In this document: piece by piece, positions 2,110 to 54,223 of the stretch
How positions within the stretch are numbered: the stretch's first letter is position 1
Layout: every line of letters starts with the position of its first letter
Source: an uncultured Lachnospiraceae bacterium
Lineage (GTDB): Bacteria > Bacillota > Clostridia > Lachnospirales > Lachnospiraceae
Direction: 5' to 3'
Assembly (NCBI GenBank): GCA_947564645.1
Contig: CANOCU010000024.1
Location: 1 to 54,271 of the forward strand
DNA: 54,271 bases
The notes under the pieces: generated by a model
Databases searched by the model: none
The model's input: the letters and a program-made list of their open reading frames with translations, nothing else
Told to the model about the DNA's origin: nothing
Translations under genes and position numbers: made by a program

Positions 2110-3609
2110 CTATTTTAGAATAACCCATTTTCCATTCTTTGCGGGACCCTCATGAATGATCATTTTTCTTTTTTTCAATGCATTAAGCGAGCGTTCGATA
2201 GAGGCCCTGGAGATATTCAACTCTTTCACCATTTTAGCTACGGATGTAGATGAATCTCTCTTTATGGCATCCAGGACCATCTGCTCCTTATCTGTCAATT
2301 TTTCATTTACTCCCTCATTTACTCCCTCATTTACTCCCTCATTTACTCCCTCATTTCGCTTCAAAAAATCCGGATGGATCAATAAGGTGGTGCAAAAGGA
2401 AAGACGTTCGGAATCCGTTTCAAAAATCGGCTTCGGTGAACCATTACGTTCCAATGCATTTAAAATTTTACGAAACCCTGTATTCCTTCCCTCTGTCAAA
2501 TGCATTTCTTTCAAAAATTCACCAATCCGCCGATTGCGGTATCGTCTGTTAAACACATGATAGGTTCGAAGTCCTTCTTCCGTAATAGAACGATCCGCAC
2601 CGGGATGACTGACAATCTCAATCCTGTCCGGTAGGACACGGACCTCTATCGGCTCACGGACATCATAACCCTTATGATATACGGCGTTGCAAAGACTTTC
2701 CTCTATGGCCGCATACGGATAATTGAAAAAACGCTTTGCCTCTGCCTGATCCGGAAGCTTTATGATCTGCTCCTGAATAATGCTGTTTTGAATATACTGC
2801 AATGCCTCACGAAGCTGTTGATGCAATGGGCCCTTAAAAATCTTCTCAATAATCCTGTCCCCACCCAGATCATCAGGAAACTGGACAACATCAATCTGCG
2901 CATAGGGAAAAAATCTTTGTGGCTCCATACTAAAAAACATCAGACCGACATTTTTAGGTTTTGTATATTCCGGCAACGTGTTGACAATATTCATATTCCG
3001 ACACAAATCCACAAATTGCATATGCTTCGACTCTTCATATAGAGAACTTCCGATCTCTTTCAAATAAGACTGGATCAGCGTAAGATTGAGGTCTGCCAGA
3101 TCAGCCTCATGATTGATCCGATCATCATAAGGTACATTATTGGCAAGGTTATAGAGATCACGTTTTTCTTCCTCAGACGGTACTATTGTACTGGACATTT
3201 TACGGATATAATGAATGCGCTCCTTTTCACCTTTTGCCATCGTCCTGGGGGAAGAATATGGACGCAGATAGCCGCCCGGCGCCCAGATAACGATAAATTT
3301 TTTCTCTTCGAAGTCAACTACCTCAACGATCGGAAGATATTCCGGCTGAATGCGTTTACATTTATTCAACATATCTTTCAAATAATGATCGATCTTTTCC
3401 GGTGGAATACCCGGCAGCTCCTTCGGACGCCCATCCTGCTCTCTCACACCGATCACAATATATCCGCCGCCCCAATTATCTATGTCATTCGCAAAAGCAC
3501 ATATTGTCTTTAAAGACGCTTCGGCATCCCATGTTTCCTTAAACTCAATTCTTGCCCATTCTACAGCATTTCCGGCAAGCAATGTTTTTATATTTGTTGG
3601 CACAGCCAT
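2110..3609 (-). CDS. AlbA_2 (Schlafen-type) ATP-binding regulator with C-terminal HTH
   Basis: A 499-residue protein. Residues 10-145 form an AlbA_2/Schlafen-like domain (VEWARIEFKETW, then GGGYIVIGVRE). Residues 290-410 resemble the HATPase_c_4 region of the same family (YPYAAIEESLCNAVYHKGYD; TEGRNTGFRKILNALERNGSPKP). Residues 437-499 form a winged HTH (LTDKEQMVLDAIKR...SRASIERSLNALKKRKMI). Such proteins are annotated as putative transcriptional regulators; biochemical role is poorly known and some occur in defence loci. Between the ATPase and the HTH lies a perfect NEGV tandem repeat (residues 419-434). By eye the gene is more AT-rich than its neighbours, which fits an accessory gene. Confidence 0.8.
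   Translation of the reverse strand: MAVPTNIKTLLAGNAVEWARIEFKETWDAEASLKTICAFANDIDNWGGGYIVIGVREQDGRPKELPGIPPEKIDHYLKDMLNKCKRIQPEYLPIVEVVDFEEKKFIVIWAPGGYLRPYSSPRTMAKGEKERIHYIRKMSSTIVPSEEEKRDLYNLANNVPYDDRINHEADLADLNLTLIQSYLKEIGSSLYEESKHMQFVDLCRNMNIVNTLPEYTKPKNVGLMFFSMEPQRFFPYAQIDVVQFPDDLGGDRIIEKIFKGPLHQQLREALQYIQNSIIQEQIIKLPDQAEAKRFFNYPYAAIEESLCNAVYHKGYDVREPIEVRVLPDRIEIVSHPGADRSITEEGLRTYHVFNRRYRNRRIGEFLKEMHLTEGRNTGFRKILNALERNGSPKPIFETDSERLSFCTTLLIHPDFLKRNEGVNEGVNEGVNEGVNEKLTDKEQMVLDAIKRDSSTSVAKMVKELNISRASIERSLNALKKRKMIIHEGPAKNGKWVILK
2302..2355 (-). repeat. In-frame 12-bp tandem repeat in the linker of the AlbA_2 protein
   Basis: Four identical 12-bp units (TTTACTCCCTCA on the plus strand) plus a half unit. 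On the coding strand they encode (NEGV)4-NE, residues 419-436. The unit is a multiple of three, so slippage would lengthen or shorten the linker between the ATPase-like core and the winged helix without a frameshift. Confidence 0.9.
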
Positions 3610-6800: not shown

Positions 6801-7970
6801 TCATTTCGCAGTCCGCAGACGCTCCACGAATGCCGCCAGCTTCCCGATCGCGATCTTCAGATTATCCAGGGAATACGCATAGGAAATTCTCAGATATCCT
6901 TCCCCACAGTTACCGAAAGCCGTTCCCGGCACCACAGCCACCTTCTCTTCCTCCAGAAATCTGTTCGCAAACTCTTCGCTGGTCATGCCGAACTCCTTAA
7001 TGCACGGGAACACATAGAACGCCCCGAAAGGTTCGAAGCACTCCAGTCCCATCTCCCGGAAAGCATTCATCAGATAACGTCTGCGCTGGTTGTAAGCCAT
7101 CCGCATCTCCTGCACGTCGTCATCCCCGTTGCGCAGCGCTTCCACAGCCGCATACTGACTGGTGGTCGGCGCACACATAATGGCAAACTGATGGATCTTC
7201 GTCATCTGTTCCACAATTTCCTTTGGTCCGCAGGCATAGCCCAGCCGCCAGCCGGTCATGGCAAACGCCTTCGAGAAGCCGTTGATCAGGATCGTACGCT
7301 CCTGCATTCCCTCGATCTCCACGATCGAAACATGTTTCTCCTTATAGGTAAGCTCCGCATAGATCTCATCGGAAATGACGAAAAGATCATGCCGGCGGAT
7401 GACCTCCGCGATCTCCTCCAGATCCTTCCGCTCCATGATCGCTCCTGTAGGATTGTTTGGAAAAGGCAGGATCAGCACCTTCGTCTTATCGGTGATGGCA
7501 TCTTCCAGTTCCTGCGCCGTCAGACGAAACTCGTTCTCCCCTTTTAACTCGATGATCACAGGCACGCCGCCTGCCAGCACCGTACAAGGTTCATAGGAAA
7601 CATAGCTTGGCTGCGGAATCAGCACTTCCTCACCGGGGTTGAGCATCGCGCGCAGGCCGATATCGATCGCTTCCGAACCGCCTACCGTGACCAATACCTC
7701 GTGATCCGGATCGTATGTAACACCCTGTTTTCTCTTCGTATAGTGACAGATCTCTTCTTTCAGTTCCTTCAGACCGGAGTTTGACGTATAGAAGGTACGC
7801 CCCTTCTCCAGGGAATAAATACCCTCGTCGCGGATGTGCCACGGCGTATCGAAATCCGGTTCTCCCACACCCAGCGAGATCGCATCCTTCATCTCACTGA
7901 CGATGTCGAAAAATTTACGGATCCCGGACGGCTTGATCTCTACTACTTTATCTGCTAACGGATTTCTCAC
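6801..7970 (-). CDS. PLP-dependent aminotransferase, class I/II
   Basis: A 389-residue fold-type I aminotransferase similar to PatA/AspC-like enzymes of Firmicutes. The substrate-facing motif PNNPTG (Asn173), Asp201/Tyr204 in SDEIYAELTY, and the PLP-lysine motif GFSKAFAMTGWRLGY (Lys234) are intact. It is translationally coupled to the preceding Lrp regulator: its start overlaps the Lrp stop by 4 bases. Coupling to an Lrp/AsnC regulator suggests its substrate is an amino acid sensed by that regulator, but the substrate cannot be read from the sequence. Confidence 0.9.
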   Translation of the reverse strand: MRNPLADKVVEIKPSGIRKFFDIVSEMKDAISLGVGEPDFDTPWHIRDEGIYSLEKGRTFYTSNSGLKELKEEICHYTKRKQGVTYDPDHEVLVTVGGSEAIDIGLRAMLNPGEEVLIPQPSYVSYEPCTVLAGGVPVIIELKGENEFRLTAQELEDAITDKTKVLILPFPNNPTGAIMERKDLEEIAEVIRRHDLFVISDEIYAELTYKEKHVSIVEIEGMQERTILINGFSKAFAMTGWRLGYACGPKEIVEQMTKIHQFAIMCAPTTSQYAAVEALRNGDDDVQEMRMAYNQRRRYLMNAFREMGLECFEPFGAFYVFPCIKEFGMTSEEFANRFLEEEKVAVVPGTAFGNCGEGYLRISYAYSLDNLKIAIGKLAAFVERLRTAK

Positions 7971-48077: not shown

Positions 48078-50462
48078 ATGATATTTGCATTTGAAAACGA
48101 TACAGGAAAAGTGATCAGGCGCCTGGCCCGCCGCAGTATGCAGGCCGACAGAAGACGGAGCCTTTTTATCGTTCTTACGATCTCTCTGGCCGTCTGTCTG
48201 ATGGGAATGCTGGGTTTTATCCAGTCCGCCAGAAGGATGCGGACAAGAGAAGAGATCCAGGGCCATTACCAGGCAGGGTGCATCGGCACGATAGAAGAGA
48301 TAAAGCGCCTTGCCGATACCGGAAAATTTGAGAAATGGGGCTATACCATAGACGGCCCCAGAATCCGCTACCAGGACAGTCACCTGTCCTTTGGCTTCGT
48401 GGATCCGGGCATGATCGATCTGATGAAATCCGAAGAGATAAGCGGCGTTTATCCGCAGACGGATACGGAACTTGCCGCGGAACGCGCTTTTCTGGAATAT
48501 TACGGACTGCCGGTCAGGACAGGCCAGTCTGTCACCCTGGATCTGGGGGACGGCGAGCGTGCCTATACGGTCACCGCCATTCTGGAAAAAGACAATGCCA
48601 GCAGGGAATTTACTTTCTGGATCTCTGAGTCCGCCGCCCTTGCCCTTGCAGACCACAGGGAAGCCCCCTACGAACTGCGGTTTCGTTTTGTACAGAACGG
48701 GTCCGGCGACACGGAACAGCTGCGGGCCGATATCAACGCCTTTTTCCAGGAAATGGGTATCCCCGAAGACCGGACTTTCTTCAGTTCAAACTATTTCGAG
48801 ATGGCGGAACTGTATCTGGGCAGCGATATGGAGGCTTATCTGCTGTCAGTGGTGATCGCCCTGGTCTGCGCGGTGGTGATCTACAACATTTTCTACATCT
48901 CCGTGATGGGAAAGCTGCGCGAGTACGGCCGCCTGAAAGTGCTGGGCGCAACGCCCGCACAGCTGCGGCATATTGTCAAAAGGGAACAGCGCCTTCTGAC
49001 AGCGGTTTCGATCCCGCCGGGACTGGTCGCGGCGGCGGTCATTACCACGATCCTGATGCCCGGTTACTGGGCATGGGCAGACAATCTTAAGTTTGCGGCG
49101 GTCGTCGCTATGCTGACCTATGCGATGGTCCTGATAGCGGCCAGAAAGCCGCTGCAGCTTGCCGGAAAAGTATCCGCCATCGAAGCGATACGGACGACGG
49201 CCTACTCCCAACAGCAGGAATGCCGTGCCCCCAGGCACAAGCACCGCCCGCTGACTCTGCCCAGACTGGCCCTTATGAACTTTTCCCGCAGCCGCAAGAA
49301 GGCTTTCGTGACCTCCCTGTCTCTTAGCCTGACCGGTATTCTGCTGCTCTGCGTCTCAACCTATGCCAGTTCCATCGACGTAGAGGCCATGGCGCTGGCC
49401 CAGTTTGGCGACCACAGTAACTACCTGTTGGAACTGGGACCGCACAAGGATTACAGCGGTCCCGGCGTGCCGGAACTGCAGAAGGAGGAATTGTTCAGCC
49501 AGGCGTTGCAGGAAAAGCTTACAGCCCTTCCCGATGTGGATCATATCACCACCTATAATACAACCTGCGTACAGATACCGAAGATCTGGGAAGAGGAGCC
49601 TTTTACCGTGACGGGACTGGACGAAGAACAGATGGCGGCGATGTTTTCACCGGACATGATACTGGACGGCGCCGTGGACCATGGGCGGCTGCTTCATGAG
49701 AACGGTATTCTGGTCTGCCCCGGCGGCAGCACGCTAAAGACCGTCTACCATGCGGAATACAAGCCCGGCGATACCGTTACCCTGGAAGCTTATAACGGAA
49801 AGACGAAGACCTACACCGTGCAGGGAATTGTAAAGCATCCCTGGATCGGCCCTACCAACTTTTTCATCCTGCCCACGGAAGAATTGTCTGCGCTTTACCC
49901 GGAGATCGATGACTTTACGACTGTCCTCAACATTCATGCGAAAGCGGACAGCGAACAGCTCAGGCAGGTCATATTCGATACGGTGACGTCCGACAATATC
50001 ACCATCTCCGTGCTGGATGATCTGACCGCACAGTTAAATGTCAGCCTTCAGGACGATGTGAAAAGATATTACGGCATCCTGATCTTCGTGTTTCTCTTCT
50101 CGCTGATCAACCTTGCAAACACGCTGATCACAAACCTTCTGGCCCGCCAGCAGGAATTCGGCATCTTCCAGTCCGTGGGCATGAGCAACAGACAGCTTTC
50201 TTCCATGCTCTCCTGCGAGTGCCTGTATTATATAGGGATCACGCTGACCGCCACCCTGACGATCGGAACGGCGTGCAGCATGGTCCTCTGCCGCGCCTTC
50301 GACCGGCTGGGCATCTTTGGAAAGGTCACCTATCACTTCCCGCTTCTGCAGGTAACACTGTTTACTGCGGCGCTCCTGCTCGTGCAGGCGGTGTTCTCCG
50401 TCTGTGCGGTCCGCTATTCCAGAGGGCTGTCGCTTGTGGAGCGGATTAAGGCGGTGGATTAA
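48078..50462 (+). CDS. FtsX-type ABC permease with two FtsX domains, module 2
   Basis: A 794-residue permease. Helix 1 (about 27-46, FIVLTISLAVCLMGMLGF) is followed by a large extracytoplasmic domain (about 50-250), then a first FtsX domain with MGKLREYGRLKVLGATPAQLRHIVKREQ; a second large outer domain (about 445-660) is followed by a second FtsX domain (LANTLITNLLARQQEFGIFQSVGMSNRQLSSMLSCE). Start is ATG 48078, after AAAGGTGTGG; the frame opens at 47964 inside the ATPase gene. This two-domain type differs from the ten-helix BceB of module 1. Confidence 0.92.
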   Translation: MIFAFENDTGKVIRRLARRSMQADRRRSLFIVLTISLAVCLMGMLGFIQSARRMRTREEIQGHYQAGCIGTIEEIKRLADTGKFEKWGYTIDGPRIRYQDSHLSFGFVDPGMIDLMKSEEISGVYPQTDTELAAERAFLEYYGLPVRTGQSVTLDLGDGERAYTVTAILEKDNASREFTFWISESAALALADHREAPYELRFRFVQNGSGDTEQLRADINAFFQEMGIPEDRTFFSSNYFEMAELYLGSDMEAYLLSVVIALVCAVVIYNIFYISVMGKLREYGRLKVLGATPAQLRHIVKREQRLLTAVSIPPGLVAAAVITTILMPGYWAWADNLKFAAVVAMLTYAMVLIAARKPLQLAGKVSAIEAIRTTAYSQQQECRAPRHKHRPLTLPRLALMNFSRSRKKAFVTSLSLSLTGILLLCVSTYASSIDVEAMALAQFGDHSNYLLELGPHKDYSGPGVPELQKEELFSQALQEKLTALPDVDHITTYNTTCVQIPKIWEEEPFTVTGLDEEQMAAMFSPDMILDGAVDHGRLLHENGILVCPGGSTLKTVYHAEYKPGDTVTLEAYNGKTKTYTVQGIVKHPWIGPTNFFILPTEELSALYPEIDDFTTVLNIHAKADSEQLRQVIFDTVTSDNITISVLDDLTAQLNVSLQDDVKRYYGILIFVFLFSLINLANTLITNLLARQQEFGIFQSVGMSNRQLSSMLSCECLYYIGITLTATLTIGTACSMVLCRAFDRLGIFGKVTYHFPLLQVTLFTAALLLVQAVFSVCAVRYSRGLSLVERIKAVD

Positions 50463-50481
50463 CTTATCGTTTTGTATAAGA

Positions 50482-50523
50482 AAGAGCATCCGGATCTTCC
50501 TTTTCCGGATGCTCTTCGTTTTT
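50482..50523 (+). terminator. Strong terminator after the module 2 ABC operon
   Basis: AAGAGCATCCGGA pairs with TCCGGATGCTCTT perfectly, followed by CGTTTTTT. It separates the permease gene from the convergent LacI gene. Confidence 0.95.
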
Positions 50524-50564
50524 TAACGAGCCTTTTATAATCTTTCCTGAAAGAAAAATGATAT

Positions 50565-51797
50565 CTAATCTTCAGCATTCAAGTCCTCCATTAATTCTTC
50601 TATAGAAGAAAAAGAACGACTCAAATTCCTTCCATGTTTTACATCATCAATTGCTCTGATCGTATCTGAATTAGATCCCTCCATCGAAATTGCAAAAGGA
50701 ATTCTCTGTTCTCTAACTGTCAGTTTTTGCACTTCTCCTGTCGTCTCCCTGTAGCATGCGCTCGTCTGCGTATGGATCCTGCGTATCTGCAAAGACGGCT
50801 CCTTGATCCTGGAAGACAGCAGATAGGCCGCACAGTCTCCCATCACATGGCTGTGTATATGGACGCTGGTAAGGGAAGGGGTCATGATCTGGGACTCCAT
50901 CGTATCGTCAAAACCGCAGAGCCACACATCCTTTGGAACCGCTATCCCCATACGCTTAAACACGCGCATGACGTCAAACGCCACATAATCGTTGGCACAG
51001 ATAAATACCTCCGGCAGCGTGCCGATCCTGGCAAAGCTCTCCGACAGATATTCCTGGTACTCCTCCGCTCCCGGTTTCTTCACACCTTCCTTATTTCCGA
51101 TGATGCAGTACTCTTCCCTGCAAGGCATACCCAGAAGGTACATGGCATTCCGGTAAGCCATGTATCGCTCAAAGAATGACTGACAATGCCTGTATTCCCC
51201 GATAAACCCGATCCGCTGCTTCCCTCTGCGAACCATTTCTGACACAAGCCCAAAGATACCGGACTCATTATCCGGACAGATAAGGTCCGCTGCCAGCGGT
51301 CCGTCCAGACCTGCTGCCGGGGCATCCACAAACAGCACCGGGAGATCCAGGCTGCATAGCATCGCACAATATTCCCGGTCAAGCATCTCAATACAGATAA
51401 TGCCCGATACTTTCTCCCGGTCAAGGGTCGCCGGCAGCCGCAGGGTTTCCTCATCCGTCCCGCTGACCCGATGCATGGTAAAACGATAACCCATCCTGGC
51501 AAACTGTCTCTGGAACTGATCCAGCATAACGGACAGATAACTTGTATTTCCCGTAAATCCCATGGTCAGCAAGGCAATCTCCCCCGCTGTCCCTTTGACC
51601 GGCAGACTGCTCTGCGGCTGCTCGACAACGGCATTCAGATAGGAGAACTGTTTATAGCCCATCTCTATTGCTTTCCTGATCACCTTCTCCCGCGTTCCCT
51701 CCGCCAGAAGACCCGTATTATTGATCGCCTTGGAGACCGTATTCCTGGAAACGCCCAACTCGTCCGCGATATCCTGCAATGTAACCCTTGCCGCCAT
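50565..51797 (-). CDS. LacI-family regulator with RelB/DinJ-like C-terminal tail
   Basis: A 410-residue protein, longer than the usual ~335-345. Residues 5-50 are the LacI HTH (VTLQDIADELGVSRNTVSKAINNTG), and ~72-350 the periplasmic-binding-like sensor domain (ICANDYVAFDVMRVFKRMGIAVPKDVWLCGFDD). The normal family end would be near ACYRETTGE (~355). The last ~53 residues instead read like the C-terminal half of a RelB/DinJ antitoxin (REQRIPFAISMEGSNSD...SRSFSSIEELMEDLNAED). The frame is continuous, and the DNA of the tail is visibly more AT-rich. Start is ATG 51797 with AAAGGAG upstream. It may regulate sugar genes nearby; no toxin gene follows. Confidence 0.85.
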   Translation of the reverse strand: MAARVTLQDIADELGVSRNTVSKAINNTGLLAEGTREKVIRKAIEMGYKQFSYLNAVVEQPQSSLPVKGTAGEIALLTMGFTGNTSYLSVMLDQFQRQFARMGYRFTMHRVSGTDEETLRLPATLDREKVSGIICIEMLDREYCAMLCSLDLPVLFVDAPAAGLDGPLAADLICPDNESGIFGLVSEMVRRGKQRIGFIGEYRHCQSFFERYMAYRNAMYLLGMPCREEYCIIGNKEGVKKPGAEEYQEYLSESFARIGTLPEVFICANDYVAFDVMRVFKRMGIAVPKDVWLCGFDDTMESQIMTPSLTSVHIHSHVMGDCAAYLLSSRIKEPSLQIRRIHTQTSACYRETTGEVQKLTVREQRIPFAISMEGSNSDTIRAIDDVKHGRNLSRSFSSIEELMEDLNAED

Positions 51798-51872
51798 ATT
51801 GCTTCTCCTTTTCCTGGAAATTTCGCTTTTGGTCCTGCAAAAGTTTCCATCAAACATGTTCTTTGTAAAATC

Positions 51873-52048: not shown

Positions 52049-53038
52049 ATGAAAAAAGTAAATTCCTCCCCAACCATGAAAGATGTCGCCCGCGAGGCCG
52101 GCGTAGCCCTCGGTACAGTCTCAAAGGTAGTAAACGGCCTGCCCGTAAGAGAACCTTACAAACATAAAGTAGAAGACGCCATCCGGAAGCTGGACTATCA
52201 TGTGAACAGCTATGCACAGGGATTTAAATCCAACAGAACCGATACCGTTGCCCTTTTGGTGCCGAATCTGTGGGACCCCTTCTTTTCCATACTCACCCAC
52301 CACATCAACCGTGAACTGCAGGCGCGACGCTGCCGGATGTTTCTGTGCACGACGGATTTCAACCCTGATCTTGAGCAGGAGTATGTGACCATGCTCCAGA
52401 ACAATAAAGTGGACGGGATCATCGGTCTGACTTACAACCCGCAGTTGGAAGTTCCGGAGGGGATTCCCTTCGTTTCGATCGACCGCTCCATGGGTCCTCA
52501 TATTCCCTGCGTGGCCAGCGATAATTTTCAGGGCGGCCAGATGGCGGCAGAGAAACTGGCCGATCTGGGATGCACGAACGTAGCATTCCTTCGGACAGGT
52601 TCTTCCCTGAATAATGAACCAAATAAGCGCAAAGCAGGTTTTGAGAACGGATGTCTTTCCAGAAAACTGAACTATGAAATGCTGATTCTGGACGACGGAG
52701 AACCTTATGATAAATTTGACCGTTTTCTGGCGGAACATATAGAATGCGGCAGATCATACTTTGACGGCATTTTCTGTGTCACGGATAAAGTCGCATATCA
52801 TGTAATAAAAACATTGAGAAACCTGCAGATCAAAGTCCCCGAAGACGTACAGGTAATCGGATTTGACGGGATACGGCAGTTAGGAGACTTAGACCCTGTC
52901 TGTTCCAGTATCGTACAGCCCGTAGAGGAAATAGCGCAGACATGCATCGGTCTTCTGTTCCGGGAATTTCCTCCCGGCAGGCTGCCTTTGATCTGCCTGC
53001 CTGTCACCTACACATATGGCGGTACCACACGGGAATAA
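52049..53038 (+). CDS. LacI-family transcriptional regulator
   Basis: A 329-residue regulator of normal length. The HTH is PTMKDVAREAGVALGTVSKVVNGLPV (about 8-35) and the hinge/sensor domain begins at TDTVALLVPNLWDPFFSILTHHI; conserved sensor motifs are VDGIIGLTYNPQ, FVSIDRSM, VASDNFQGGQMAAEKLADLGC and VQVIGFDGIRQLGDLDPVCSSIVQPVEEIA. It faces the GH32 beta-fructosidase gene at the right edge and is the best candidate for its regulator (inference from position). A strong terminator follows. Confidence 0.92.
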   Translation: MKKVNSSPTMKDVAREAGVALGTVSKVVNGLPVREPYKHKVEDAIRKLDYHVNSYAQGFKSNRTDTVALLVPNLWDPFFSILTHHINRELQARRCRMFLCTTDFNPDLEQEYVTMLQNNKVDGIIGLTYNPQLEVPEGIPFVSIDRSMGPHIPCVASDNFQGGQMAAEKLADLGCTNVAFLRTGSSLNNEPNKRKAGFENGCLSRKLNYEMLILDDGEPYDKFDRFLAEHIECGRSYFDGIFCVTDKVAYHVIKTLRNLQIKVPEDVQVIGFDGIRQLGDLDPVCSSIVQPVEEIAQTCIGLLFREFPPGRLPLICLPVTYTYGGTTRE

Positions 53039-53272: not shown

Positions 53273-54223
53273 TTACACCAGATCATACTTTACCACATCC
53301 AGATTTACCGTTCCGTCCGCGATAAAGGAGATTCCGTCCGCCGCCTGGTCTGTGTACAGGACGGCGCTCATCGTCTGCTCACCGTCGTTCACAAATACTT
53401 CCACACTGAACCGGTCCAGAATAATCCGTAACTTCAATTTACCGCCGTCATGACTGACCTTACTGCGTCTCTGGTGGATGATGGCCCGCCGGGATCCGGA
53501 GAATTTCCGGTCCACCTTCAACACCGACTCTCCCGGCCGGAAGCTGAGGGAAGTGTGATAGGAATCATTCTGGGCAAATCTGACCGCGAACTTCCGGTAC
53601 AGATCGCATCCTTCCTCCGGACGGATCGCCAGCTCCATATCGACCCGGCGCCCCTTGATCCCTTCCAGTTTCACCATACCGGAGACAGTGACATTCTCGT
53701 AGGCGACCTTATTCTGCCGCATTTCCTCCAGTTCCCGGATCGGCTTCTGATACAGCCTGCCGTTCTTTATGGACAATTCCCGCGGCAGGCTCATCTGCCC
53801 GAACCACACCTCGTCATGTCTTCTTCTGTGATTGCACGTATCCCAGTTCTGCATCCAGCCGATCATGACCCGGCGCCCGTCCGGCGTGAGGATCGTCTGA
53901 TGCGCATAGAAATCAATTCCGTAATCGGCCGCTTGGTCCGCTTCCTCCGTAAACTCCTGCGTCTCTTTGTCATAGCTTCCGATCAGGCAGAGCGTACCGT
54001 TGCCGTTGTGATATTCAAAGCCGGAGGGAAGCATATCCTGTGGACTGACAAGCAATACCCATTTTCCATCCAGAGAGAAGAAATCCGGACATTCCCACAT
54101 CTTCCCGAAACGATCCTTGTTCGCCGCCAACACCTTTTCATAGTGCCAGTCCTTTCCGAGTTTTTGGTAGTTCAGTCCGTGGGAGGTCTGCGCGCCCCGG
54201 TTCTCGCTCTGGTTGTAGCTGTC
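53273..54223 (-). CDS. GH32 beta-fructosidase, 3' exon only
   Basis: About 316 C-terminal residues of a GH32 enzyme (sucrose-6-phosphate hydrolase, levanase or fructan hydrolase). The acid/base motif is KMWECPDFFSLDGKWVLLVSP, followed by ..DFYAHQTILTPDGRRVMIGWMQNWD and the C-terminal beta-sandwich (LRIILDRFSVEVFVNDGEQTMSAVLYTDQAADGISF). The nucleophile (NDPNG) and RDP motifs lie upstream of the window. The open frame continues to the edge, but 54224-54271 look like the end of a group II intron, so the true coding exon probably begins at 54223. Split by the intron, it might be active only after splicing. Confidence 0.85.
   Translation of the reverse strand, partial: DSYNQSENRGAQTSHGLNYQKLGKDWHYEKVLAANKDRFGKMWECPDFFSLDGKWVLLVSPQDMLPSGFEYHNGNGTLCLIGSYDKETQEFTEEADQAADYGIDFYAHQTILTPDGRRVMIGWMQNWDTCNHRRRHDEVWFGQMSLPRELSIKNGRLYQKPIRELEEMRQNKVAYENVTVSGMVKLEGIKGRRVDMELAIRPEEGCDLYRKFAVRFAQNDSYHTSLSFRPGESVLKVDRKFSGSRRAIIHQRRSKVSHDGGKLKLRIILDRFSVEVFVNDGEQTMSAVLYTDQAADGISFIADGTVNLDVVKYDLV

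Follow-up and report, generated by a model that had tools for sequence, protein, structure and literature searches.

How did a LacI-family regulator gene come to end in half of an antitoxin gene, and is the added tail of any use? This question is raised by a locus on contig CANOCU010000024.1 of an uncultured Lachnospiraceae bacterium (GCA_947564645.1, a draft assembly of 140 contigs, 91% complete). The whole stretch of DNA that we analysed, 54,271 nt, is called the window below. In it, a lacI frame runs on into sequence related to relB, the antitoxin gene of relB-yafQ toxin-antitoxin operons. We found that a ~207-bp piece of such an operon, containing antitoxin codons 38–90 and a toxin stub, is joined in frame at the site of the lacI stop codon. 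LacI is complete; the N-terminal half of the antitoxin and most of the toxin gene are missing. Very probably the protein arises by read-through of lacI into what is left of a toxin-antitoxin operon, with LacI functional and the tail of no use. As the evidence stands, this is a single-genome event; most likely it came about by accident and does not represent a new regulatory circuit.

The LacI Frame and Its Tail

The fusion consists of the following parts.

50565..51797, minus strand: LacI-family regulator with a RelB/DinJ C-terminal tail, fusion open reading frame (ORF) of 410 aa (from the ORF and profile matches)
50736..51797, minus strand: LacI-family regulator part, residues 1–354, ending at the stop position of homologues (from homologue and DNA comparison)
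50727..50735, minus strand: junction zone of 9 nt without a lacI stop codon (from DNA comparison)
50565..50726, minus strand: C-terminal half of a RelB/DinJ antitoxin, relB codons 38–90 and the stop (from TIGR02384, RelB relatives and DNA alignment)

The ORF runs for 410 unbroken codons from the ATG at 51797 to a stop ending at 50565. An upstream ATG at 51857 would yield 430 aa; the starts of homologues favour the MAARVTLQ-like position. The protein belongs to the LacI family of DNA-binding regulators, which usually respond to sugars, since both the LacI helix-turn-helix domain (PF00356, E 1.3e-9) and Peripla_BP_3 (PF13377, E 2.3e-24) were found over the cut-off. The GC content is 35.7% in 50565–50735 versus 53.7% in the LacI part, which agrees with the first-pass annotation, where an unbroken frame and AT-rich DNA from about 50730 were noted.

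The same annotation read the last ~53 residues as the C-terminal half of a RelB/DinJ antitoxin and named a profile search with the tail alone as a test. In this search the tail matched TIGR02384 (RelB_DinJ) with E 2.4e-7 and 30.9 bits over profile positions 40–85 of 85; the whole protein gave E 4.3e-6 and 26.9 bits, both scores lying below the NCBIfam cut-off of 45.65 bits. Pfam RelB matched the tail with E 0.015, under the gathering score, and did not figure in the list of 25 families obtained with the entire fusion protein. Compared with full-length RelBs of the genus, the last 53 residues showed up to 85% identity (E 5.8e-25). At the level of sequence similarity this comparison is stronger evidence for the identity of the tail than the profiles, and the earlier reading of the tail stands. 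A search of solved structures gave no convincing match to the tail itself (best E 0.49, unrelated); a full-length relative of the tail matched E. coli DinJ. The tail thus corresponds to the presumed toxin-binding half of RelB/DinJ. The N-terminal half, which dimerises and binds DNA, is missing: codons 1–37 are absent, and lacI sequence stands there instead.

The Junction at the DNA Level

Positions 50300–51100 of the window were compared with 98 loci by BLAST, and the figures given here hold among the matches listed. Similarity to lacI ends at 50734 at the latest. Similarity to relB-yafQ runs from 50726–50727 to 50521–50522 with 76–83% identity (loci L007 to L012), and L013 and L015 give shorter matches within the relB stretch. 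In the alignment, the lacI side of the window stands opposite the beginning of relB in all relatives except L013. The coding part of lacI is preserved up to its final residues and lacks nothing but the stop codon: the closest homologue (L021, from an uncultured Lachnospiraceae metagenome-assembled genome) has YRETTED followed by a stop, and the window has YRETTGE-VQK at this place. Because the lacI stop is removed and the antitoxin frame is kept, translation continues to the antitoxin's own stop. That lacI captured an antitoxin gene's 3' end by recombination was one of the two explanations offered at first pass, and this sharp junction supports it.

The similarity does not end at the antitoxin stop but takes in the ~20 opening codons of the toxin gene, and a hairpin lies just beyond.

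50519..50578, minus strand: YafQ-type toxin gene, of whose 90 codons only the first ~20 remain; these overlap the relB end (from comparison with relatives)
50484..50514, no strand: terminator-like hairpin right after the relBE fragment, with a stem of 12 bp and a loop of 9 (from folding)

Five relatives (L007, L008, L009, L010 and L012) have a full relB and an overlapping toxin gene of 90 codons, and the L007 toxin matches YafQ_toxin with E 1.5e-36. In L011 relB is full and the toxin is cut at about codon 20. Toxin codons 1–20 of the window, at 50578–50519, are 75% identical over 20 codons, and the sequence beyond is unrelated; the frame of the stub enters the hairpin and stops after 39 codons. 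The hairpin is missing from the terminator consensus scan, which was limited to loops of 3–8. The earlier remark that no toxin gene follows is right for a full toxin gene but misses this beginning of one. With RelB/DinJ-YafQ systems (type II toxin-antitoxin) the locus has in common the C-terminal half of the antitoxin, closely related in sequence, and the overlap of its stop with the toxin start. It differs in that the antitoxin has LacI fused to it in place of an N-terminal half of its own, and in that only ~20 toxin codons remain.

Broken Copies of the Operon in the Genus

To count copies of this operon, the DNA of the L007 operon was used as the query in 77 genomes of the genus (E 1e-40 or better, adjoining pieces joined). 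By our count, there are 20 close copies in 19 of the 77 genomes. Twelve cover the operon about end to end, and 8 of the 20, the window's included, are broken. In query positions, the broken copies cover 1–376 with the toxin cut (G033), 167–343 and 445–590 (G035, contig C45, locus L013), 3–421 with the toxin cut (G065), and 6–239 and 414–516 (G021). G006 is covered to 479 and has a stop inside the toxin. Both copies of G071 are broken, one covering 105–622, the other 25–340 with 403–619. Decay of this relB-yafQ operon is thus common in the genus. One contig of G071 (C52, locus L139) holds two damaged copies, at 3110–3563 and 7488–7957. The damage differs: in one the antitoxin start is lost beside a 90-codon toxin, in the other a full antitoxin stands beside a toxin with a disrupted start.

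The window piece corresponds to query positions 171–377. Its right end lies no more than one base from that of G033 (376) and its left end no more than four from that of G035 (167), and the sequence adjoining these breaks differs each time. The coincidence could be chance, because it was noticed afterwards and the breaks are few; perhaps it reflects a weak recombination hot spot.

Distribution of the Fusion

We then asked how common the tail is. The LacI homologues compared are the best 80 of 192 related loci, taken from a scan of species genomes. One of them (L070) runs off its contig; the other 79 reach a stop, at 342–399 residues, with 72 at 349–358. The regulator had been described as ~65 residues too long: the excess is real, and by these lengths it is about 55 residues. 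None of the 79 homologues with a stop in view carries the RelB tail, which rules it out as a conserved C-terminal domain of LacI proteins of many genera. The three longest (382, 385 and 399 aa) end with the usual C-terminus, and the L037 homologue extends about nine residues past it without the tail. L021, the closest of the 80 (78% identical), shares residues 1–353 with the window protein. It differs in ending there, with ...CYRETTED. At E 1e-60 or better, the regulator is present in 4 of 61 genomes, the source genome and three of the genus, and those three match only to residue 356–358. As for an ancestral neighbourhood of lacI and relB, a motif search alone was made, and it found the relB motif in none of the 80 loci within 400 nt 3' of the lacI frame.

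The fusion was sought in the 77 genus genomes and in 392 genomes drawn from the order. The junction protein matched 23 and 24 of them, respectively, and the long frame is present in the source genome only. The fusion thus does not recur in several genomes, as a conserved domain fusion would (one of 77 in the genus, one of 392 in the order). The next longest RelB-matching frame, of 200 aa in G419, was considered as a second fusion and turned out to be an ordinary relB-yafQ pair with an upstream run-on. Among viral contigs we found neither a relative of RelB nor the exact junction. In one open literature library we found no paper on a fusion of a LacI-family protein and a RelB antitoxin.

Origin of the Fusion and Alternative Explanations

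The fusion most likely arose as follows. A ~207-bp relB-yafQ piece would have come to adjoin the 3' end of lacI near a GH32 gene. The join would have deleted the lacI stop and preserved the antitoxin frame, so that reading continues to the antitoxin stop. LacI most likely continues to regulate the GH32 gene nearby, and the added residues are most likely a flexible, inert extension, which perhaps lowers the stability of the protein. The make-up of the locus, its junction, the missing parts of both toxin-antitoxin genes and the confinement to one of the genomes searched are observed; we infer the order of events, the recent date, the regulation of GH32 and the lack of a toxin-binding role. Passages of PMC7354431 describe degraded toxin-antitoxin loci, orphan antitoxins and anti-addiction. 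With the remnants described there, the window has in common a remnant without a working cognate toxin adjacent to it and broken copies of the operon in the genus. It differs in that translation adds the remnant to the C-terminus of a regulator to which it is unrelated. In the predicted model most ten-residue blocks of the LacI core have a pLDDT (predicted local distance difference test score) of 75–96 and the DNA-binding part has 66–89, with lower stretches around residues 51–70, 81–90 and 301–320. The tail is mostly below 50 and forms two short helices that are unpacked. This evidence on the tail is weak, because only seven usable alignment rows cover it after row L015 was misplaced.

Several results weigh against a useless tail. 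Its frame is intact to the stop. In a codon branch model (50 codons, 13 sequences) omega, the ratio of nonsynonymous to synonymous substitution rates (dN/dS), was 0.05 on the window branch versus 0.048 elsewhere, and an omega of 1 along the whole window branch was rejected (likelihood ratio test 14.2, p 1.6e-4). Such a low omega would fit a recent capture, and it would also fit continued selection. Since the branch includes the time before capture, when the sequence was a normal antitoxin, the value shows only that the tail has not drifted for long. Four of the 12 relBs compared (L011, L109, L110 and L123) themselves sit in broken operons. This set comprises 12 of the 23 places outside the source genome (13 of the less distant ones were picked, and L113 was lost because the motif search missed it). 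Pairwise dN/dS, like the branch model, showed no excess change for the window. Both agree poorly with a count of the bases private to the window: nine positions, of which 5 change the amino acid and 4 are silent. When the toxin stub served as the neutral reference, the 12 comparisons had no power: 11 gave p 0.25–1.0, and one, with L123 and its disrupted toxin frame, gave p 0.02.

Could the tail still neutralise YafQ-type toxins, with LacI as a stable carrier? It would then act as an orphan antitoxin against an incoming relB-yafQ (anti-addiction, as in the passages cited above) or against a YafQ-like toxin of its own genome. The tail is complete to its stop and close to full RelBs, and passages of PMC6529426 describe contact of the C-terminal domain of E. 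coli DinJ with YafQ. Possible targets exist: RelB-type matches occur in 23 of the 77 genus genomes (the source genome included) and YafQ-like toxins in 48. Relatives of the window RelB were found on 248 of 72,556 plasmid records (247 of the 248 below 60% identity), which indicates that the RelB family is mobile. However, the fusion was seen in one genome only, and four of the five private amino-acid changes fall within five codons, where the conserved D(I/V)PNA has become EGSNS. The P of the PN motif is present in 11 of the 12 RelBs and PN also in E. coli DinJ; the window has SN. We consider retained neutralisation very unlikely. It is likewise very unlikely that the fusion is a working orphan antitoxin, in which a stable LacI bearing the toxin-binding RelB half would give standing immunity to the relB-yafQ modules circulating in the genus and on plasmids.

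The source genome does contain one full-length YafQ-like toxin (C51:13300–13563, PF15738 E 2.6e-33), which is 57–59% identical to the toxins of relatives (59% to that of L008). Directly upstream of it, in the antitoxin position, is an ORF of 72 aa, for which Pfam gave nothing at E 0.1 and BLASTP no alignment with the tail. This argues against the neutralising tail, and the first-pass idea of a toxin in the same genome whose antitoxin shares the tail found no match here. The 72-aa ORF is possibly an unusual type of antitoxin for YafQ. In this pair (L124 4292–4785) the ORF carries an IPNAETI motif. No other close copy of the tail was found in the source genome (next match E 0.98). A search of it with TIGR02384 gave three weak matches, the window tail among them, and none exceeded the cut-off. 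The match at C16:575–724 overlaps an ORF of 124 aa (L125 530–904) that resembles RelB only marginally (Pfam E 4.3e-4) and has a small, seemingly HicA-like ORF nearby. A third YafQ-like match, at C55 (E 0.04), spans only a C-terminal piece. Because the assembly is 91% complete, the lack of a partner in this genome is unproven.

An assembly chimera of lacI and relBE debris is very unlikely. The genome is a draft in many contigs, and the junction was not found in any second assembly among the genus genomes and viral contigs searched. However, neither flank is related to relBE, and a chimera would therefore require two wrong joins no more than about 210 bp apart. The source genome has no other copy of the fragment that was found by our search, and the join is in frame. 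Each of the two break points lies within a few bases of a break in another genome (G033 and G035), which makes a real biological break likelier than an assembly fault.

A sugar-sensing circuit, in which ligand binding by LacI alters the exposure of the tail and catabolite state thereby sets the free toxin level, as also proposed at first pass, is extremely unlikely: the regulator lies near GH32 and has a disputed precedent in MrpC, but the circuit requires the whole toxin-binding explanation plus allosteric coupling to a low-confidence, unpacked tail, and an operon piece cut at both ends, found in one genome and belonging to a family of commonly broken copies, gives it no positive support. In passages of PMC4803016, MrpC, a transcription factor of Myxococcus xanthus, is reported as an antitoxin of MazF, with conflicting data. 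Common to both cases is a regulator proposed to double as an antitoxin; the window tail differs in being derived from an antitoxin, with toxin binding only putative.

As a read-through product, the locus is a clean snapshot of a protein gaining a foreign segment by accident: the stop is lost, the fragment is in frame, and the host protein is otherwise complete. Had the tail retained the ability to bind a toxin, it would show a short path by which an addiction module becomes permanent immunity, at the cost of a 53-residue tail.

Gene Neighbourhood

Upstream of the regulator on the same strand lies the GH32 gene.

53273..54133, minus strand: GH32 hydrolase frame, whose L021 homologue is likewise upstream of lacI (from the ORF list and comparison)

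In L021 the regulator also follows a same-strand gene, whose product is 89% identical over 295 codons to the window GH32. The two loci differ in what comes after lacI, which in L021 is another gene. Between GH32 and lacI, the window has a second, divergent LacI gene at 52049–53038 on the plus strand. In L021 GH32 and lacI are only about 200 bases apart, without an intervening LacI gene.

The downstream neighbour of the fusion is an ATP-binding cassette (ABC) transporter operon. The operon DNA is 81% identical over 2.4 kb to contig 18 of G100; the ORF that comes next there is a different one, and after the permease G100 shows neither a terminator nor a relBE piece in common with the window. In the window the ABC operon is preceded by ORFs whose translations look, on inspection, like a response regulator and a sensor kinase.
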